Assembly: GCA_004297005.1 (NCBI GenBank)
Contig: SCVA01000011.1
Coordinates: 1 to 64,000, forward strand
Origin: Nevskiaceae bacterium
Lineage (GTDB): Bacteria > Pseudomonadota > Gammaproteobacteria > Nevskiales > Nevskiaceae
Length of the DNA: 64,000 bases
Direction of reading: 5' to 3'
Shown piece by piece: positions 8,570 to 14,303 of this stretch. The notes beneath the pieces were generated by a model. The model searched no databases. It was not told where the DNA came from and worked only from the letters and a program-made list of their open reading frames with translations. Within the stretch, counting starts at the first letter, position 1, and every line of letters begins with the position of its first letter. The translations under genes were made by a program, and so were the position numbers.

Positions 8570-9253
8570 TCAGATCGAGGGGATCACGTAGAGCAGCACC
8601 GCGAAGTAGTGCAGCGCCGAGCCCAACAGGGTGAACAGATGCCAGATCGCGTGGTGGTAGCGCATCTTGGTCTGCAGGTAGAAGCCGACGCCGGCGGTAT
8701 AGGCGCAGCCGCCGGCGATCAAGAGCCACAGGCCCTCGCGCGGCAGGCCTTCGGAAAGGCGCGACATCAATGGCAGCGCACCCCAGCCCAGAGCCAGATA
8801 GATCCACAGCGCGATGCGCTCGTGGGTGTCCGGCGCCAGCATCCGGAAGGCGATGGCGGTGAGCGCCACCGTCCAGGTGGCGATGAACAGGGTCGGGCCA
8901 AGCGGGCCATCGACCACCAGCAGGCAGAATGGCGTGTAGGTGCCGGCGATCAGCACATAGACGAAGGCCTGGTCGATGGCGCGCAGCACGTCCTTGGCGG
9001 TGGGCAGCAGCGACAGCGGCACGCTGTGGTAGATCGCCGAGGCCAGATAGGTGAGCAGCATCGCCATGCCGAACATGCTGCAGGCGACGATGTGCAGGTA
9101 TTCGCCGTACATCGCGGCGCGGGCGGCGAGCACCGCCAGGCCGGCGATCGCCAGCAGCGCACCCAGGCCGTGGCTGACGCTATGGGCGATCTCTTCCGCC
9201 GCCGAGTAGACGGGCGGGGTGCTGAGACGGCGGGTCTGGGGCAGGTCGGCCAT
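8570..9253 (-). CDS. Hemolysin III / YqfA (PAQR) family membrane protein, copy 1
   Basis: 227 residues with seven predicted membrane helices. The family metal-binding pattern is visible: AAEEIAHSVSHGLGA near the N-terminus, SAIYHSVPLS in the middle and YHHAIWHLFTLLGSALHYFAV at the C-terminus. PAQR-like bacterial proteins are linked to membrane homeostasis; hemolytic activity is rarely shown. A second, diverged copy lies 55 bases upstream on the same strand, implying tandem duplication. Confidence 0.9.
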   Translation of the reverse strand: MADLPQTRRLSTPPVYSAAEEIAHSVSHGLGALLAIAGLAVLAARAAMYGEYLHIVACSMFGMAMLLTYLASAIYHSVPLSLLPTAKDVLRAIDQAFVYVLIAGTYTPFCLLVVDGPLGPTLFIATWTVALTAIAFRMLAPDTHERIALWIYLALGWGALPLMSRLSEGLPREGLWLLIAGGCAYTAGVGFYLQTKMRYHHAIWHLFTLLGSALHYFAVLLYVIPSI

Positions 9254-9308: not shown

Positions 9309-10019
9309 TTATCCGCCGCCGACCGCGCCGGAGGGGATCACATAGAACAGCACCGCGAAGTAATGCAGCACGCTGCCGGTGAGCACGAACAGATGCCAGA
9401 TCGCGTGGTGGTAGGGCAGCTTTTCCCAGGCGTAGAACACCACGCCCAGGCTGTAGGAGAGCCCGCCCGCCAGCAGTAGCCAGAGGCCGCCCGCCGGCAG
9501 CGCCGCCAGCAGCGGCTTGATCGCCAGTACCGCGCACCAGCCCATGGCCAGATAGACGCCCAGGGACAGCGCCTCGTAACGGCCGGTGGTGAAGATCTTG
9601 AACACCACGCCGACCGCGGCCAGGCCCCAGGTCAGCGCGAACAGGCTCCAGCCCCAGGGCCCGTGCAGGGTCACCAGGGTGAACGGCGTGTAGGTGCCGG
9701 CGATCAGCAGGTAGATGCAGCAGTGGTCGATCACCCGCAGCACCTGCTTGCTGCGCGGCAGCGGGATGCCATGAAACAGCGCCGAGGCGGTGTACATCAG
9801 GATCAGGGTGGCGCCGAACACGCTGGCGGAGACCACATGCCAGGCGTTGCCGTAGAGCGCCGCCTTGGCCACCAGCACCGTCAGGCCGGCGATGGCGGCG
9901 AAGGCGCCGACGCCGTGGCTGAGCGCGTGGGCGATCTCCTCGCCGAGGCTGTAGATGCTGTCCGGCAGCGTCACCCGGACCCTGGGCGGCCGGGGTGGGG
10001 CAGCATGGTGACGACTCAT
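9309..10019 (-). CDS. Hemolysin III / YqfA (PAQR) family membrane protein, copy 2
   Basis: 236 residues from the ATG at 10019. Same layout as copy 1: LGEEIAHALSHGVGAFAAIAG, ASALFHGIPLP, and YHHAIWHLFVLTGSVLHYFAVLFYVIPSG at the C-terminus (residues not listed in full). The three His clusters of the PAQR metal site are kept. It has an extra Arg/Pro-rich N-terminal stretch. The start is 8 bases after the nfeD stop, so it is read as part of the qmcA-nfeD operon. Confidence 0.88.
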   Translation of the reverse strand: MSRHHAAPPRPPRVRVTLPDSIYSLGEEIAHALSHGVGAFAAIAGLTVLVAKAALYGNAWHVVSASVFGATLILMYTASALFHGIPLPRSKQVLRVIDHCCIYLLIAGTYTPFTLVTLHGPWGWSLFALTWGLAAVGVVFKIFTTGRYEALSLGVYLAMGWCAVLAIKPLLAALPAGGLWLLLAGGLSYSLGVVFYAWEKLPYHHAIWHLFVLTGSVLHYFAVLFYVIPSGAVGGG

Positions 10020-10027
10020 GCCCAGGC

Positions 10028-10459
10028 TCAGGCCGGCTTGACGCGCAGCGTCGTGCCTTCGATGCCGACCACCTTCACCTTGGCGCCGGCCGGCAGGTCG
10101 GGGCCGTGCACGCGCCAGACACTGTCCTCGACGCGCGCCTTGCCGACGCCGTCTTCGATGGCTTCCACCAGCACGAACACCTGGCCGATGTAGCCGCGTC
10201 CGCGCTGGTTGAGGCCGTGCTCCACCACCGCCTTGTCGGCGGGCCGGAAGCGGAACCACAGGCCCACCGCCGCGAACGACAGCACCGCGAACAGCACCAC
10301 CTCCACCTGCCAGTGCAGGCCGGGGATCAGCCAGGCGGCGGCGCCGGTGACGAAGGCGGCGAGACCCAGCCAGAGGCAGAAGGTGCCGGGCAGCAGGATC
10401 TCGGCGATCAGCAGGCCAAAGCCGAGCACCCACCAGTGCCAGAAGACCAGGGCATCCAT
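10028..10459 (-). CDS. NfeD-family membrane protein
   Basis: 143 residues. Two or three N-terminal membrane helices (FWHWWVLGFGLLIAEILLPG, then LWLGLAAFVTGAAAWL and VEVVLFAVLSFAAVGL) precede a small OB-fold soluble domain (~75-143) with GRGYIGQVFVL and GAKVKVVGIEGTTLRV. Short NfeD proteins partner with SPFH/stomatin proteins in membrane-quality-control or raft-like assemblies. The SPFH gene ends 3 bases upstream. The protease domain of long NfeDs is absent. Confidence 0.9.
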   Translation of the reverse strand: MDALVFWHWWVLGFGLLIAEILLPGTFCLWLGLAAFVTGAAAWLIPGLHWQVEVVLFAVLSFAAVGLWFRFRPADKAVVEHGLNQRGRGYIGQVFVLVEAIEDGVGKARVEDSVWRVHGPDLPAGAKVKVVGIEGTTLRVKPA

Positions 10460-10462
10460 GGC

Positions 10463-11416
10463 TCAGGCCTTGGGATTGACGATCTGGCCGGCGTTCTTGG
10501 CCAGGTCGGCGATGCCGCTGATGGAACTGATCACGCCCATCGCCTCCAGCGGCAGGTAGACGGTCTTCTGGTTGGGCGACAGCGCCATTTCCTTGAGCGC
10601 CTCGACGTATTTCTGAGCGATGAAGTAGTTGAGCGCCTGCACATCGCCCTTGCTCACCGCCTCGCTGACCATGATCGTCGCGCGCGCCTCGGCCTGGGCC
10701 TCGCGCTCGCGGGCGTCGGCGTCGCGGTAGGCGGCCTCCTTGCGGCCCTCGGCGTCGAGGATGGCCTGCTGCTGCTCGCCTTCGGCGCGCAGGATCTGCG
10801 ACTGCTTCTCGCCCTCGGCCTTGAGGATCGCCGCCTGGCGGAAGCCTTCGGCTTCGAGGATGTTGGCGCGCTTGTCGCGCTCGGCCTTCATCTGCCGCGC
10901 CATGGAATCGACCAGATCGGCCGGTGGGCGGATGTCTTTGACCTCGATGCGGGTCACCTTGATGCCCCAGGGCGAGGTCGCCTGGTCCACCACCGCCAGC
11001 AGCTTGGTGTTGATGTGATCGCGCTGGCTGAGCAGCTCGTCGAGGTCCATCGAGCCCATCACCGTGCGCAGGTTGGTCTGGGTCAGGTTGAGGATGGCGT
11101 ACTCCAGTTGCTGCACCTCATAGGCGGCCTTCGGCGCGTCCAGCACCTGGTAGAACACCACGCCGTCGACGCCGACCATGGCATTGTCCTTGGTGATGAC
11201 CTCCTGGCTGGGCACGTCCAGCACCTGCTCCATCATCGACAGCCGGCGGCCGACGCGGTCGACATAGGGCACCAGCCAGTGCAGGCCGGGGGTGAAGGTG
11301 GCGCGGTACTTGCCGAAACGCTCGACGGTGTATTCCATGCCCTGAGGCACGGTGACCACGCCCTTGTAGAGCGTGACGGCGGCGAAGATCAGAAATGCGA
11401 TGGCGAAGGCGGACAT
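10463..11416 (-). CDS. SPFH/stomatin-like protein (QmcA/YbbK family)
   Basis: 317 residues. It has an N-terminal membrane anchor (MSAFAIAFLIFAAVTLYKG), an SPFH domain (~25-190: VPQGMEYTVERFGKY, TPGLHWLVPYVDRV, IKVTRIEVKDIRPP), then a long Ala/Glu/Arg coiled coil (~190-260) and a C-terminal VYLPLEAMG segment. These proteins oligomerise into cage-like assemblies around membrane proteases such as FtsH. It pairs with nfeD directly downstream. The ATG at 11416 fits the anchor; upstream in-frame sequence is not protein-like. Confidence 0.93.
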   Translation of the reverse strand: MSAFAIAFLIFAAVTLYKGVVTVPQGMEYTVERFGKYRATFTPGLHWLVPYVDRVGRRLSMMEQVLDVPSQEVITKDNAMVGVDGVVFYQVLDAPKAAYEVQQLEYAILNLTQTNLRTVMGSMDLDELLSQRDHINTKLLAVVDQATSPWGIKVTRIEVKDIRPPADLVDSMARQMKAERDKRANILEAEGFRQAAILKAEGEKQSQILRAEGEQQQAILDAEGRKEAAYRDADAREREAQAEARATIMVSEAVSKGDVQALNYFIAQKYVEALKEMALSPNQKTVYLPLEAMGVISSISGIADLAKNAGQIVNPKA

Positions 11417-11546
11417 GACGGCTCTCAGTTGGAAGCGATACCCAGGACAGCATCCTAGCGTGTCAACCGGATGGCAATCGCCGGACTTGTGTGGGCAGGA
11501 GTGGCGGCGGACGCCCTCCAACCTCTCACCGTCACAGGAGCATCGC

Positions 11547-11984
11547 ATGGACCGCAAACCCGTATTCCATCTGGCGCTGGCCTTAAGTGCCGCGCTGCTG
11601 GCGCCCCTGGCGCAGGCCCAGACCCCGGTCGAGAACCGCGCCGGGCGCATCGACCAGCGCATGGATCAGCGCGGCGAGCGCAAGGAGCAGCATGCCGACC
11701 AGCGCGGCGATACCGTCGACCAGCGCCTGGACCGCCGTGGCGACGCGGTGGAGCAGCACACAGACAACCGTGCCGAGCGCCTGGATGCGCACGGCCACGA
11801 GCAGGCGGCCGCCCAGATCGACCAGCGTGGCGAGCGCTACCAGAGTCGCCTGGACGAAAAGGGCGACCGCGTCGACTCGCGCCTGGACGAGCGCGGCGAG
11901 CGCAAGGAAACCCGGCTGGATGCCAAGGGGGATCGGGTGGTGCAGCGTGCTGACCGTCGTGCCGACCGCCGTCACGGCGATTGA
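11547..11984 (+). CDS. Secreted protein built from 11-residue repeats, unknown function
   Basis: 145 residues with a clear signal peptide (cut near AQA at ~24) and CAGGAG 6 bases before the ATG. From residue 39 to the end it is almost entirely an 11-residue repeat of the type LDxRGDRVDQR. Eight near-regular copies plus a degenerate 8-residue insertion (83-90) and a terminal partial are seen. It is extremely rich in Asp, Arg, Glu and Gln, with no Cys or Trp. Hendecad periodicity suggests an extended right-handed helical or coiled-coil periplasmic rod, or a disordered polyampholyte. No family assigned. The sigma-factor gene follows at once. Confidence 0.75.
   Translation: MDRKPVFHLALALSAALLAPLAQAQTPVENRAGRIDQRMDQRGERKEQHADQRGDTVDQRLDRRGDAVEQHTDNRAERLDAHGHEQAAAQIDQRGERYQSRLDEKGDRVDSRLDERGERKETRLDAKGDRVVQRADRRADRRHGD
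11661..11981 (+). repeat. In-gene tandem repeat, 33-bp unit (11 codons)
   Basis: Protein units by residue: 39-49, 50-60, 61-71, 72-82, (83-90 irregular), 91-101, 102-112, 113-123, 124-134 and 135-145. Most units begin with hydrophobic residue-Asp, then x-Arg/Lys-Gly-Asp/Glu-Arg. The DNA copies are diverged, so this is an old repeat, not a recent slippage array. Confidence 0.8.
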
Positions 11985-11991
11985 CCCGCGG

Positions 11992-12555
11992 GTGAGTGCC
12001 AGCGCGCGGCCGCAGACCTCGACGCTCGCCGGTTTCCTGGCTGGCGTCGAGCGGCGGGCGCTGCGCATCGCCCAGCTCGGTACCGGCGGCGACGCCGACG
12101 AGGCCCTGGACTGCGTGCAGGAGGCGATGATCCAGCTCGCCCGCCATTACGCCGACCACGATCCCGCCGAGTGGCCGCCGCTGTTCTACCGCATCCTCGA
12201 CAACCGCTTGCGCAAGTGGCGTTACAAGCAGTTGCTGCGCGGCCGCTGGCTGGGCCAGCGGCAGTTCGACGACGACGAGGCCGAGGAATCGACGCTGGAG
12301 CGCCTGCCCGGCCCCGAGGCCGAGCGCCCCGAGGCGCTGGTAGCCGGCGCGCAGGTACAGCAGCGGGTACAGCAGGCCTTACAAAGCCTGCCGCACCGGC
12401 AGCGTCAGGCCTTCCTGCTGCGGCATTGGGAGGGGCTTTCCACCAGCGAGACCGCCCAGGCCATGGCCTGCAGCGAGGGCAGCGTCAAAACCCATCTGTC
12501 GCGGGCGATCAGCGCCCTGCAAACCCTGCTGGCGCAGGAAGGACTGCAAGCATGA
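11992..12555 (+). CDS. Sigma-70 family RNA polymerase sigma factor (ECF-like)
   Basis: About 187 residues from a GTG at 11992. The frame is open much further upstream but there it only shadows the repeat gene, and other GTG/CTG starts at 11947-11959 are possible. The sigma-2 region has DEALDCVQEAMIQLARHY and the WPPLFYRILDNRLRKWRY pattern. The sigma-4 HTH has LPHRQRQAFLLRHWEGLSTSETAQ and CSEGSVKTHLSRA. Its stop overlaps the start of a DUF3619-like gene, and a DUF3106 gene follows. The usual sigma / DUF3619 / DUF3106 trio suggests the membrane protein controls the sigma factor. Confidence 0.85.
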   Translation: MSASARPQTSTLAGFLAGVERRALRIAQLGTGGDADEALDCVQEAMIQLARHYADHDPAEWPPLFYRILDNRLRKWRYKQLLRGRWLGQRQFDDDEAEESTLERLPGPEAERPEALVAGAQVQQRVQQALQSLPHRQRQAFLLRHWEGLSTSETAQAMACSEGSVKTHLSRAISALQTLLAQEGLQA

Positions 12556-12920
12556 GCCGCCAAACCGAGCAGCACGAGTCGCCGCCGCCGGGCACCGAAC
12601 CGGTGCTGCGCGCGCTCGACCACTGGCAGGACGAGATCGACCCGGTGCAGCGTGCGCGGCTGGCCGCCGCCCGCCGTCGCGCGCTGGCCGCCGCCGAGGC
12701 GAAGCCCCGGCCGGCCTGGGTCTGGCTGGCGCCGGCACTGGCGACTGGCGTGCTGCTGGCTTTCGGCATCGGCTTCTGGCCGCCGGCGCCGATGCCGAGC
12801 GCGCCGCCGGCGCCCGCCATCGAAGAGTTGGCGGTCGGCCAGCCGACGATGGGTGAGGAGCCTTTGCAGGACGAAGACCTCGAATACCTGCTCTGGCTTG
12901 CCGCCGACGATGCCGCCTGA
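12552..12920 (+). CDS. DUF3619-like single-pass membrane protein (possible anti-sigma partner)
   Basis: 122 residues, start overlapping the sigma stop (ATGA). The cytoplasmic N-terminus contains the short motif DPVQRARLAAARRRALA, followed by one membrane helix (WVWLAPALATGVLLAFGIGF, ~57-76). A Pro/Ala-rich periplasmic stretch ends in the acidic tail LQDEDLEYLLWLAADD. Architecture and coupling to a sigma-factor gene suggest an anti-sigma role, but there is no zinc-binding ZAS motif, so this is inference. Confidence 0.75.
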   Translation: MSRQTEQHESPPPGTEPVLRALDHWQDEIDPVQRARLAAARRRALAAAEAKPRPAWVWLAPALATGVLLAFGIGFWPPAPMPSAPPAPAIEELAVGQPTMGEEPLQDEDLEYLLWLAADDAA

Positions 12921-12927
12921 GGCCGCC

Positions 12928-13380
12928 ATGAAAGCGCTCCTGAATTTCGCTCGCTGCTGGCTGTCCCTGGCCCTGCTGTGCGCCGCTCCGGCGGTCTGGG
13001 CCCAGAACTGGAACGAGCTCAAGCCCGAGCAGCAGCAGGCGCTGTCCGAGTTCGCGGCCGGTTGGGACAGCCTGCCCGCCGATCGTCGCGAGCAACTGCT
13101 AAGTGGCGCCGACCGTTACAACGCTCTGTCCCCCGAACAGCAGGCGCAGCTCAAGGAAGGGCGCGAACGCTGGAAGTCGCTGAGCCCCGAAGAGCGCGAG
13201 CGCCTGCGCGGCTTCGTGCGCGAATTCCGCGAGCTGTCGCCGGAACGCCGCGCCGAGATTCGCGAGCGCTTCCGCGCCGCGCGTCAGTTGCCGGAGGCCG
13301 AGCGCAAGCAGATCCGCGACTGCGCGCGCGGCAAGACCCCGGAAAAGGCCGCCGAATGCCTGCCGGCCGCGAAGAAATGA
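12928..13380 (+). CDS. DUF3106 secreted protein
   Basis: 150 residues with a signal peptide (cut after VWAQ, ~26). The mature part repeats short helical units: LKPEQQQALSEF, LSPEQQAQLKEGRERWKSL, LSPEERERLRGFVREFREL, LSPERRAEIRERFRA. This helical-repeat pattern defines DUF3106. It ends in a Cys-containing segment. Located 8 bases after the DUF3619-like gene and overlapping the next start. The resemblance to CpxP/Spy-like helical periplasmic proteins is my comparison, not established. Confidence 0.85.
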   Translation: MKALLNFARCWLSLALLCAAPAVWAQNWNELKPEQQQALSEFAAGWDSLPADRREQLLSGADRYNALSPEQQAQLKEGRERWKSLSPEERERLRGFVREFRELSPERRAEIRERFRAARQLPEAERKQIRDCARGKTPEKAAECLPAAKK

Positions 13381-14303
13381 GCCGCGCGCCTCTACGGTTC
13401 GCCGTCCTGCTGGGCCTGGGGCTGGCCTGGGCGTCGGGACTCGCGACGGCCCGAGCCGACAGCGGCGAGCGTCAGCATGTGCGGGTGGGCGAGACGCAGC
13501 GCGGCTACCTGATCCGGGTGCCCGCGCCTTTGCCGAGTGGCCCTTTGCCCCTGGTGCTGATGCTGCACGGTGGCGGAGGCAATGCCGACAATGGCGAGCA
13601 GATGAGCGGCTTCACACCCATCGCCCGGCGCGAGGGCTTCATCGTCGTCTACCCGGATGGCAGCGGGCGCTTCGAGGAGCGCCTGCTGAGCTGGAACGCA
13701 GGCCACTGTTGCGCCTACGCGATGGAGCATGGTGCGGACGACGTCGCCTTCATCCGCGCGCTGATCAAGCAGGTTTCGCAGGACTATCCGGTGGACCCGC
13801 GCCGCATCTACGTCACCGGCATGTCCAACGGCGGCATGATGAGTCACCGCCTGGGGCTGGAACTGTCCGACACGGTGGCGGCGATCGCGCCGGTGGTGGG
13901 CACGCTGTTCGGCGACGAGGCGTTGCCGCCGCGACCAGTGTCGGCGCTGATCATCAATGGCGGTGCCGATCGCATCGTGCCGCCCCAGGGCGGTGAGCTG
14001 GGCGGCCGGGTGGCCGGCGCCTCGGACGGCAGGCCGCTGCGGCCGGCCGGCGAGCAGGGCGCTTTCTGGGCACGAGCCGACGGTTGCGAGGCGGCCCCCG
14101 AGGTCCAGGTGCGGGGCGGCGTGCAGCACTGGCGCTACCGCTGCCCGGAGGGGCTGGCGGTGGAGCGCTATCTGATCGAGGACGCCGGTCACGCCTGGCC
14201 CGGGGGCAGCGCCGGTCGCCGCCGCGCCGATCCGCCGAGTCAGGCGCTGAAGGCCAGCGAGACCATCTGGGCCTTCTTCAAGGCGCATCCGAAGGCGCCG
14301 TAG
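13377..14303 (+). CDS. Secreted PHB-depolymerase/LpqC-type alpha/beta hydrolase
   Basis: 308 residues with a signal peptide (ends ATARA, ~27). Alpha/beta-hydrolase marks are LVLMLHGGGGNADNGEQ (oxyanion region, ~60-76), WNAGHCCAYA, the nucleophile elbow TGMSNGGMMSHRL with Ser ~148, an acid region near NGGADRIVPPQGG, and the His in DAGHAWPGG. This matches the esterase_phb / feruloyl esterase / LpqC group acting on short polyester or acyl esters. The start overlaps the DUF3106 stop (ATGA), so it is the last gene of the sigma operon. Confidence 0.88.
   Translation: MSRAPLRFAVLLGLGLAWASGLATARADSGERQHVRVGETQRGYLIRVPAPLPSGPLPLVLMLHGGGGNADNGEQMSGFTPIARREGFIVVYPDGSGRFEERLLSWNAGHCCAYAMEHGADDVAFIRALIKQVSQDYPVDPRRIYVTGMSNGGMMSHRLGLELSDTVAAIAPVVGTLFGDEALPPRPVSALIINGGADRIVPPQGGELGGRVAGASDGRPLRPAGEQGAFWARADGCEAAPEVQVRGGVQHWRYRCPEGLAVERYLIEDAGHAWPGGSAGRRRADPPSQALKASETIWAFFKAHPKAP

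Follow-up and report, generated by a model that had tools for sequence, protein, structure and literature searches.

An exported hendecad-repeat protein with a predicted hairpin fold, probably belonging to the core regulon of a PRK09047-type ECF sigma factor

The window (64,000 nt, positions 1 to 64,000 of contig SCVA01000011.1, GenBank assembly GCA_004297005.1) belongs to a Stagnimonas-like genome of the Nevskiaceae and carries, at the head of a sigma-factor operon, a gene for an exported protein made of 11-residue (hendecad) repeats. With confidence somewhat better than even, this protein is read as an antiparallel hendecad hairpin that is the core, and usually the first, target of the adjacent PRK09047-type ECF sigma factor and that serves as a structural or protective element of the cell envelope. 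The sequence supports the repeat, the selection acting on it, the matched lengths of its two arms, the predicted fold, the promoter, and the co-occurrence of promoter and sigma factor. The features are collected in Table 1.

Table 1. Features of the hairpin gene, its promoter and its operon (window positions)
Feature	Position	Strand	Details
-35-like element GTCAAC	11462..11467	+	perfect; 52 of the 65 family genes have this hexamer upstream
Probable -10 element ACTTGT	11485..11490	+	spacing 17; Stagnimonas-specific variant of CGTTnT
Secreted hendecad-hairpin protein	11547..11984	+	ORF of 145 aa
Signal peptide, residues 1-24	11547..11618	+	by inspection: charged n-region, hydrophobic core, AQA before residue 25
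N-arm, hendecads	11619..11789	+	predicted helix, residues 27-81 (AF2 models)
Hairpin turn HGH, residues 82-84	11790..11798	+	G83 invariant
C-arm, hendecads, more basic than N-arm	11799..11978	+	predicted helix, residues 85-144 (AF2)
ECF sigma factor, PRK09047 type	11992..12555	+	NF006550, 200.5 bits (cut-off 173); GTG start
DUF3619-like single-TM protein, putative anti-sigma factor	12552..12920	+	PF12279, 21.8 bits, just below the cut-off of 22.2
DUF3106 secreted helical protein	12928..13380	+	PF11304, 98.6 bits (cut-off 24.3)

The mature protein consists of about ten units of the form L-D-x-R-G-D-R-I-D-x-R and follows a signal-peptide-like N-terminus, recognized by eye, with LAQA up to residue 24 and QTPVEN after it; the equivalent region is present in nearly all homologues. 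When the mature part is compared with itself at increasing offsets, residue identity peaks at lag 11 (0.345) and lag 22 (0.323), while the maxima of shuffled sequences average 0.16, have a 99.9th percentile of 0.229 and reach the observed value in none of 5000 cases, so that the 11-residue period of a hendecad coiled coil stands above chance. An exported, strongly charged hendecad protein of no known family had been proposed in a preliminary description of this DNA, and that portrait is borne out: the open reading frame spans exactly 11547-11984 on the plus strand, its period lies far above chance, and its best Pfam match, Apolipoprotein, reaches 21 bits where 90 are required. The same description had the 11-mer array running through nearly the whole protein, which holds for the repeat but not for its continuity, as the conserved break AHGHEQAA (with G83) interrupts the array after four to five units and resets its register. 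Tandem Repeats Finder detects no 33-bp array within the gene at the DNA level; the repeat is therefore maintained at the protein level, and a DNA-level repeat artefact is ruled out. Moreover, dN/dS is 0.20 (NG86) against the 89% identical homologue of Stagnimonas aquatica, with 13, 6 and 27 substitutions at the three codon positions, and it ranges from 0.035 to 0.5 in the remaining pairs of relatives, apart from one very close pair whose five substitutions are uninformative. A ratio near 1 among relatives had been named in advance as the result that would overturn the gene; the values obtained indicate a conserved frame and a genuine protein-coding gene under purifying selection. Most other frames give dN/dS near or above 1, and an antisense or other-frame ORF was rejected as the real gene; the 0.31 of anti frame 1 probably mirrors the sense signal.

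The break also bears on the fold. In the family it takes the form AxAxGHExxA, dividing the array into two arms, and a motif A-x-x-A-x-x-x-G-[HNRK]-x-x-x-A-x-x-L lies near the middle of nearly every single array, with two breaks in some internally doubled proteins (L043, L054, L068). AlphaFold2 (AF2) predicts two helices joined at residues 82-84, and a model made with 25 mature sequences has pLDDT 87 and pTM 0.58. The lengths of the arms provide an independent test of the predicted hairpin: N-arm and C-arm lengths, which rely on estimated cleavage sites, correlate with r=0.80 in 41 non-redundant relatives and with r=0.76 when phylogenetic contrasts are used, and the sign is the same in 21 of 23 large contrasts; the arms of the L046/L047 pair change in opposite directions, counter to the matching. 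The net positive charge is higher in the C-arm in 40 of the 41 relatives, largely through Arg/Lys at repeat positions 3 and 10, and glycine occupies one core position in nearly every unit. A hendecad wheel built on computed residue frequencies would place L1, G5 and I8 in a core stripe, flanked on one side by D2/D6/D9 and on the other by R4/R7/R11. Structural neighbours found by Foldseek and VIA-align are mostly two-helix antiparallel coiled coils, with scores that show the arrangement only; Foldseek returns no match at E<=0.001, and no PDB relative was found by sequence.

The preliminary description had pictured a single straight rod, which in its fuller form is a parallel homo-oligomer with one continuous helix per chain. 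Hendecads do favour straight helices, and the Arg and Asp stripes flanking the core would, from the wheel geometry, pair favourably in a parallel dimer; the AlphaFold prediction that the description had called for returns helices, though as a helical hairpin and not as a straight rod, and the conserved central break with its loss of register and the matched arms speak against the rod as well. The conserved break, the AF2 models and the matched arms therefore replace the rod, by now quite improbable, with an antiparallel hairpin.

A homologue search limited to one genome per species and one conserved peptide pattern, whose counts are a lower bound, gave 65 loci, 64 of which were analysed, many of them in metagenome-assembled genomes. 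The relatives span the Gammaproteobacteria (Nevskiales, Xanthomonadales, Woeseiaceae, Cellvibrionales-type), the Betaproteobacteria (Gallionellaceae, Rhodocyclaceae, Methylophilaceae), the Deltaproteobacteria (several delta-type lineages), Mariprofundus, the Nitrospinota (Nitrospinaceae), and the Myxococcota. Neither the window protein nor 25 relatives match a Pfam or NCBIfam family at its cut-off. Specifically, Apolipoprotein A1/A4/E (PF01442) scores 20.8 bits with the whole protein and 21.2 with its mature part against a gathering cut-off of 90, Phasin (PF05597) scores 12.1 bits against 28.8, and no LEA family, including LEA group 3/LEA_4, is hit at E<=1 by the window protein or at E<=0.001 by the 25 relatives. 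These matches bear on an alternative in which the protein is an LEA-like or apolipoprotein-like amphipathic 11-mer, disordered when hydrated, that gains its fold when dried or when bound to a lipid surface and so protects membranes. The 11-residue helical period and the high charge fit such a protein, the highest-scoring Pfam models, though below cut-off, are Apolipoprotein (in 23 of the 25 members) and Phasin (in 9 of 25), and a second sigma operon in the same genome, with the same promoter, is led by an exported Ala-rich low-complexity protein. Nevertheless, the alternative is judged unlikely: the scores fall far under the curated cut-offs, the conserved turn and matched arm lengths favour a defined folded hairpin, and the core glycine within a narrow hydrophobic stripe (L, G, I) would suit coiled-coil packing better than lipid insertion.

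Most hairpin genes are preceded by an ECF-type promoter, TGTCAACC-N15-(G)CGTTnT, and 46 of 64 upstream regions contain its exact form GTCAAC-N16-CGTT, vs 5 copies in the remaining 1.11 Mb, both strands considered. The probable -10 of the window departs from the family consensus and the promoter may be weaker than elsewhere, although (A/G)CTTGT stands at the equal position in both other Stagnimonas species having the hairpin gene; a search with the Stagnimonas variant GTCAACC-N16-RCTTG gave 12 matches vs 15 for its control and is not above control. At five betaproteobacterial loci (L036, L039, L045, L056, L062), TGTCGTC-N16-CGTT replaces TGTCAAC with equal spacing, which suggests an altered -35 specificity of their sigma factor. 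Across 25 genomes, TGTCAACC-N15-CGTT has 31 matches against 3 for the reversed control; most precede a hairpin gene or a sigma gene, and the others precede exported proteins, including two DUF3106-like helical proteins and lipoproteins. Within the window's own genome the pattern is found 9 times against 14 for the reversed control, a count not above chance; 8 of these 9 matches have the exact spacing and offer a lead to a regulon of exported proteins. Four of the exact-spacing matches (L130, L134, L135, L137) precede genes for secreted proteins, exported subtilisin-like proteases among them.

The ownership of this promoter was addressed at 17 loci that lack an adjacent sigma gene, by searching the whole genomes for PRK09047. 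Where the regex-defined promoter is present, PRK09047 is encoded elsewhere in the genome in 10 of 10 cases, and where it is absent, in none of 6 (L050, L055, L065, L075, L076, L096); at the remaining locus (L053), whose genome carries the sigma factor, a one-mismatch promoter, GTAAAC-N16-CGTT, was spotted on second inspection. The co-occurrence at these non-adjacent loci is significant without L053 (Fisher p=1.2e-4) and with L053 counted against it (p=5.7e-4). Furthermore, at L111, L116, L117, L122, L123, L176, L177 and L168 the same promoter immediately precedes the sigma gene, and no hairpin gene intervenes. From these observations and the 25-genome count, the promoter is most plausibly one through which the PRK09047-type sigma factor drives its own expression, the hairpin gene being its most conserved other target; given the co-occurrence, the hairpin is probably a core target.

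The gene order agrees with this reading. In the window, the sigma gene begins 7 nt past the hairpin stop codon, with DUF3619 and DUF3106 after it, an order that recurs among the relatives. The sigma gene is the next same-strand gene within 1 kb in 41 of the 58 loci that have at least 600 nt of downstream sequence, and the median hairpin-sigma gap is 63 nt in 43 linked loci; DUF3619 HMM positions in this survey are unreliable where stop-to-stop ORFs overlap. An anti-sigma role of the DUF3619 protein would follow from its position. The gene had been described as leading a sigma-factor cluster, a statement that can now be extended to a conserved regulon member with an ECF-type promoter of its own. 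That conserved first place would also suit a protein that serves the sigma circuit as a sensor or signal, reporting the state of the envelope as a partner of DUF3619 in the periplasm, rather than as an effector. Conversely, in a phylum sample the hairpin gene lies upstream at only 3 of about 25 PRK09047 loci; most PRK09047 operons thus lack it, indicating that it is optional and that the circuit does not need it, and in some genomes the gene stands apart from the sigma gene, behind the promoter like any other target. The independence of the circuit favours an effector and leaves the sensor role with little probability. A few hairpin genes reside in genomes without a PRK09047 sigma.

Some further observations concern the surroundings. 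The own genome holds the second PRK09047 operon mentioned above (G000:C34:67310-68481; L120, L132), whose promoter is the canonical GTCAAC-N16-CGTT and whose first gene encodes another exported protein, Ala-rich and of low complexity; sigma, DUF3619-like and DUF3106-like genes follow. Directly 3' of the operon in the window, an exported PHB-depolymerase-type esterase is encoded at 13377-14303 (NF050058, 180.8 bits, above cut-off), and a similar secreted esterase lies behind a promoter-variant match at G000:C60 (L190). On the minus strand, a divergent pair read from sequence, by appearance an SPFH/QmcA-type membrane protein (10463-11417) and its NfeD-type partner (10028-10459), has its intergenic region in common with the hairpin promoter, and beyond it are tandem genes for hemolysin-III-like membrane proteins (8570-9253 and about 9309-9970), also read from sequence.

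The following chain of events can be proposed. An envelope signal would release the sigma factor from its anti-sigma partner, probably the membrane protein DUF3619, and, starting at TGTCAACC-N15-CGTT, the freed sigma factor would directly transcribe the operon that encodes it. Two of the products, the hairpin and the helical, secreted DUF3106 protein, would then reach the periplasm or the outside, where the rigid, densely charged hairpin would most likely be abundant and give the envelope structure or protection. Its biochemical role is probably envelope-protective or scaffolding because of export, predicted rigidity, charge, and gene neighbourhood. A bolder extension, which we regard as a long shot, is that exported hairpins, through their one acidic and one basic flank, pack laterally and build up a charged lattice or rod at the envelope or within the matrix. 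Such an assembly would be an extracytoplasmic counterpart of the stacking of PspA/ESCRT-type hairpins, deployed by a dedicated ECF sigma factor that is conserved from Xanthomonadales to Nitrospinota. What is new and of use here is a module of sigma factor, promoter and hairpin: in several phyla it ties a protein family that has no name to a precisely defined promoter and to a widespread stress-response sigma factor of the ECF class, and the hairpin gives the impression of being a central, so far undescribed component of a response of the cell envelope. The promoter sequence makes the PRK09047 sigma regulon searchable in thousands of genomes, and the matched-arm rule offers protein designers a ready-made set of hairpin lengths.

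Several known systems resemble parts of this module. ECF modules composed of sigma factor, anti-sigma factor, and Spy/CpxP-like protein likewise bring together a sigma factor, a single-TM protein, and a helical protein that is secreted, apparently as a unit that regulates itself; in contrast, neither the TGTCAACC-N15-CGTT promoter nor the hairpin gene was found described in the literature searched, which returned no papers on DUF3106/DUF3619, PRK09047, TGTCAACC or the repeat sequence. The Bdr repeat proteins of Borrelia align over their charged repeat stretch with 35-41% identity (tblastn with the relative L036, E about 1e-6; none of the records reaches 80% query coverage), but they are encoded by spirochaete plasmid genes and the match is confined to the repeats; the common charged repeat is probably convergent; the Bdr plasmid records (H1-H15) are the only plasmid-encoded matches to L036. 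PspA/Vipp1/ESCRT-III proteins and CHMP4B share a predicted long antiparallel two-helix hairpin, with similarities (Z 8.0 and below; for PspA/ESCRT-III, rmsd 7.0 over 120 residues and Foldseek E 1.2) at the background level of helical models, whereas the present family is exported, has no further helices, and bears no sequence relation to them. LEA group 3 proteins and the 11-mers of apolipoproteins and synucleins are also charged, amphipathic, helical 11-residue repeats, from which the hairpin family differs by its signal peptide, conserved turn, and sigma-regulated operon, with no match at cut-off. Lastly, hendecad (11/3) coiled coils share the 11-residue period, L/I and small residues at positions a, e and h, and, as far as predicted, near-straight helices, while the hairpin family is set apart by two matched arms per chain, a conserved turn, and an extreme Arg/Asp content.
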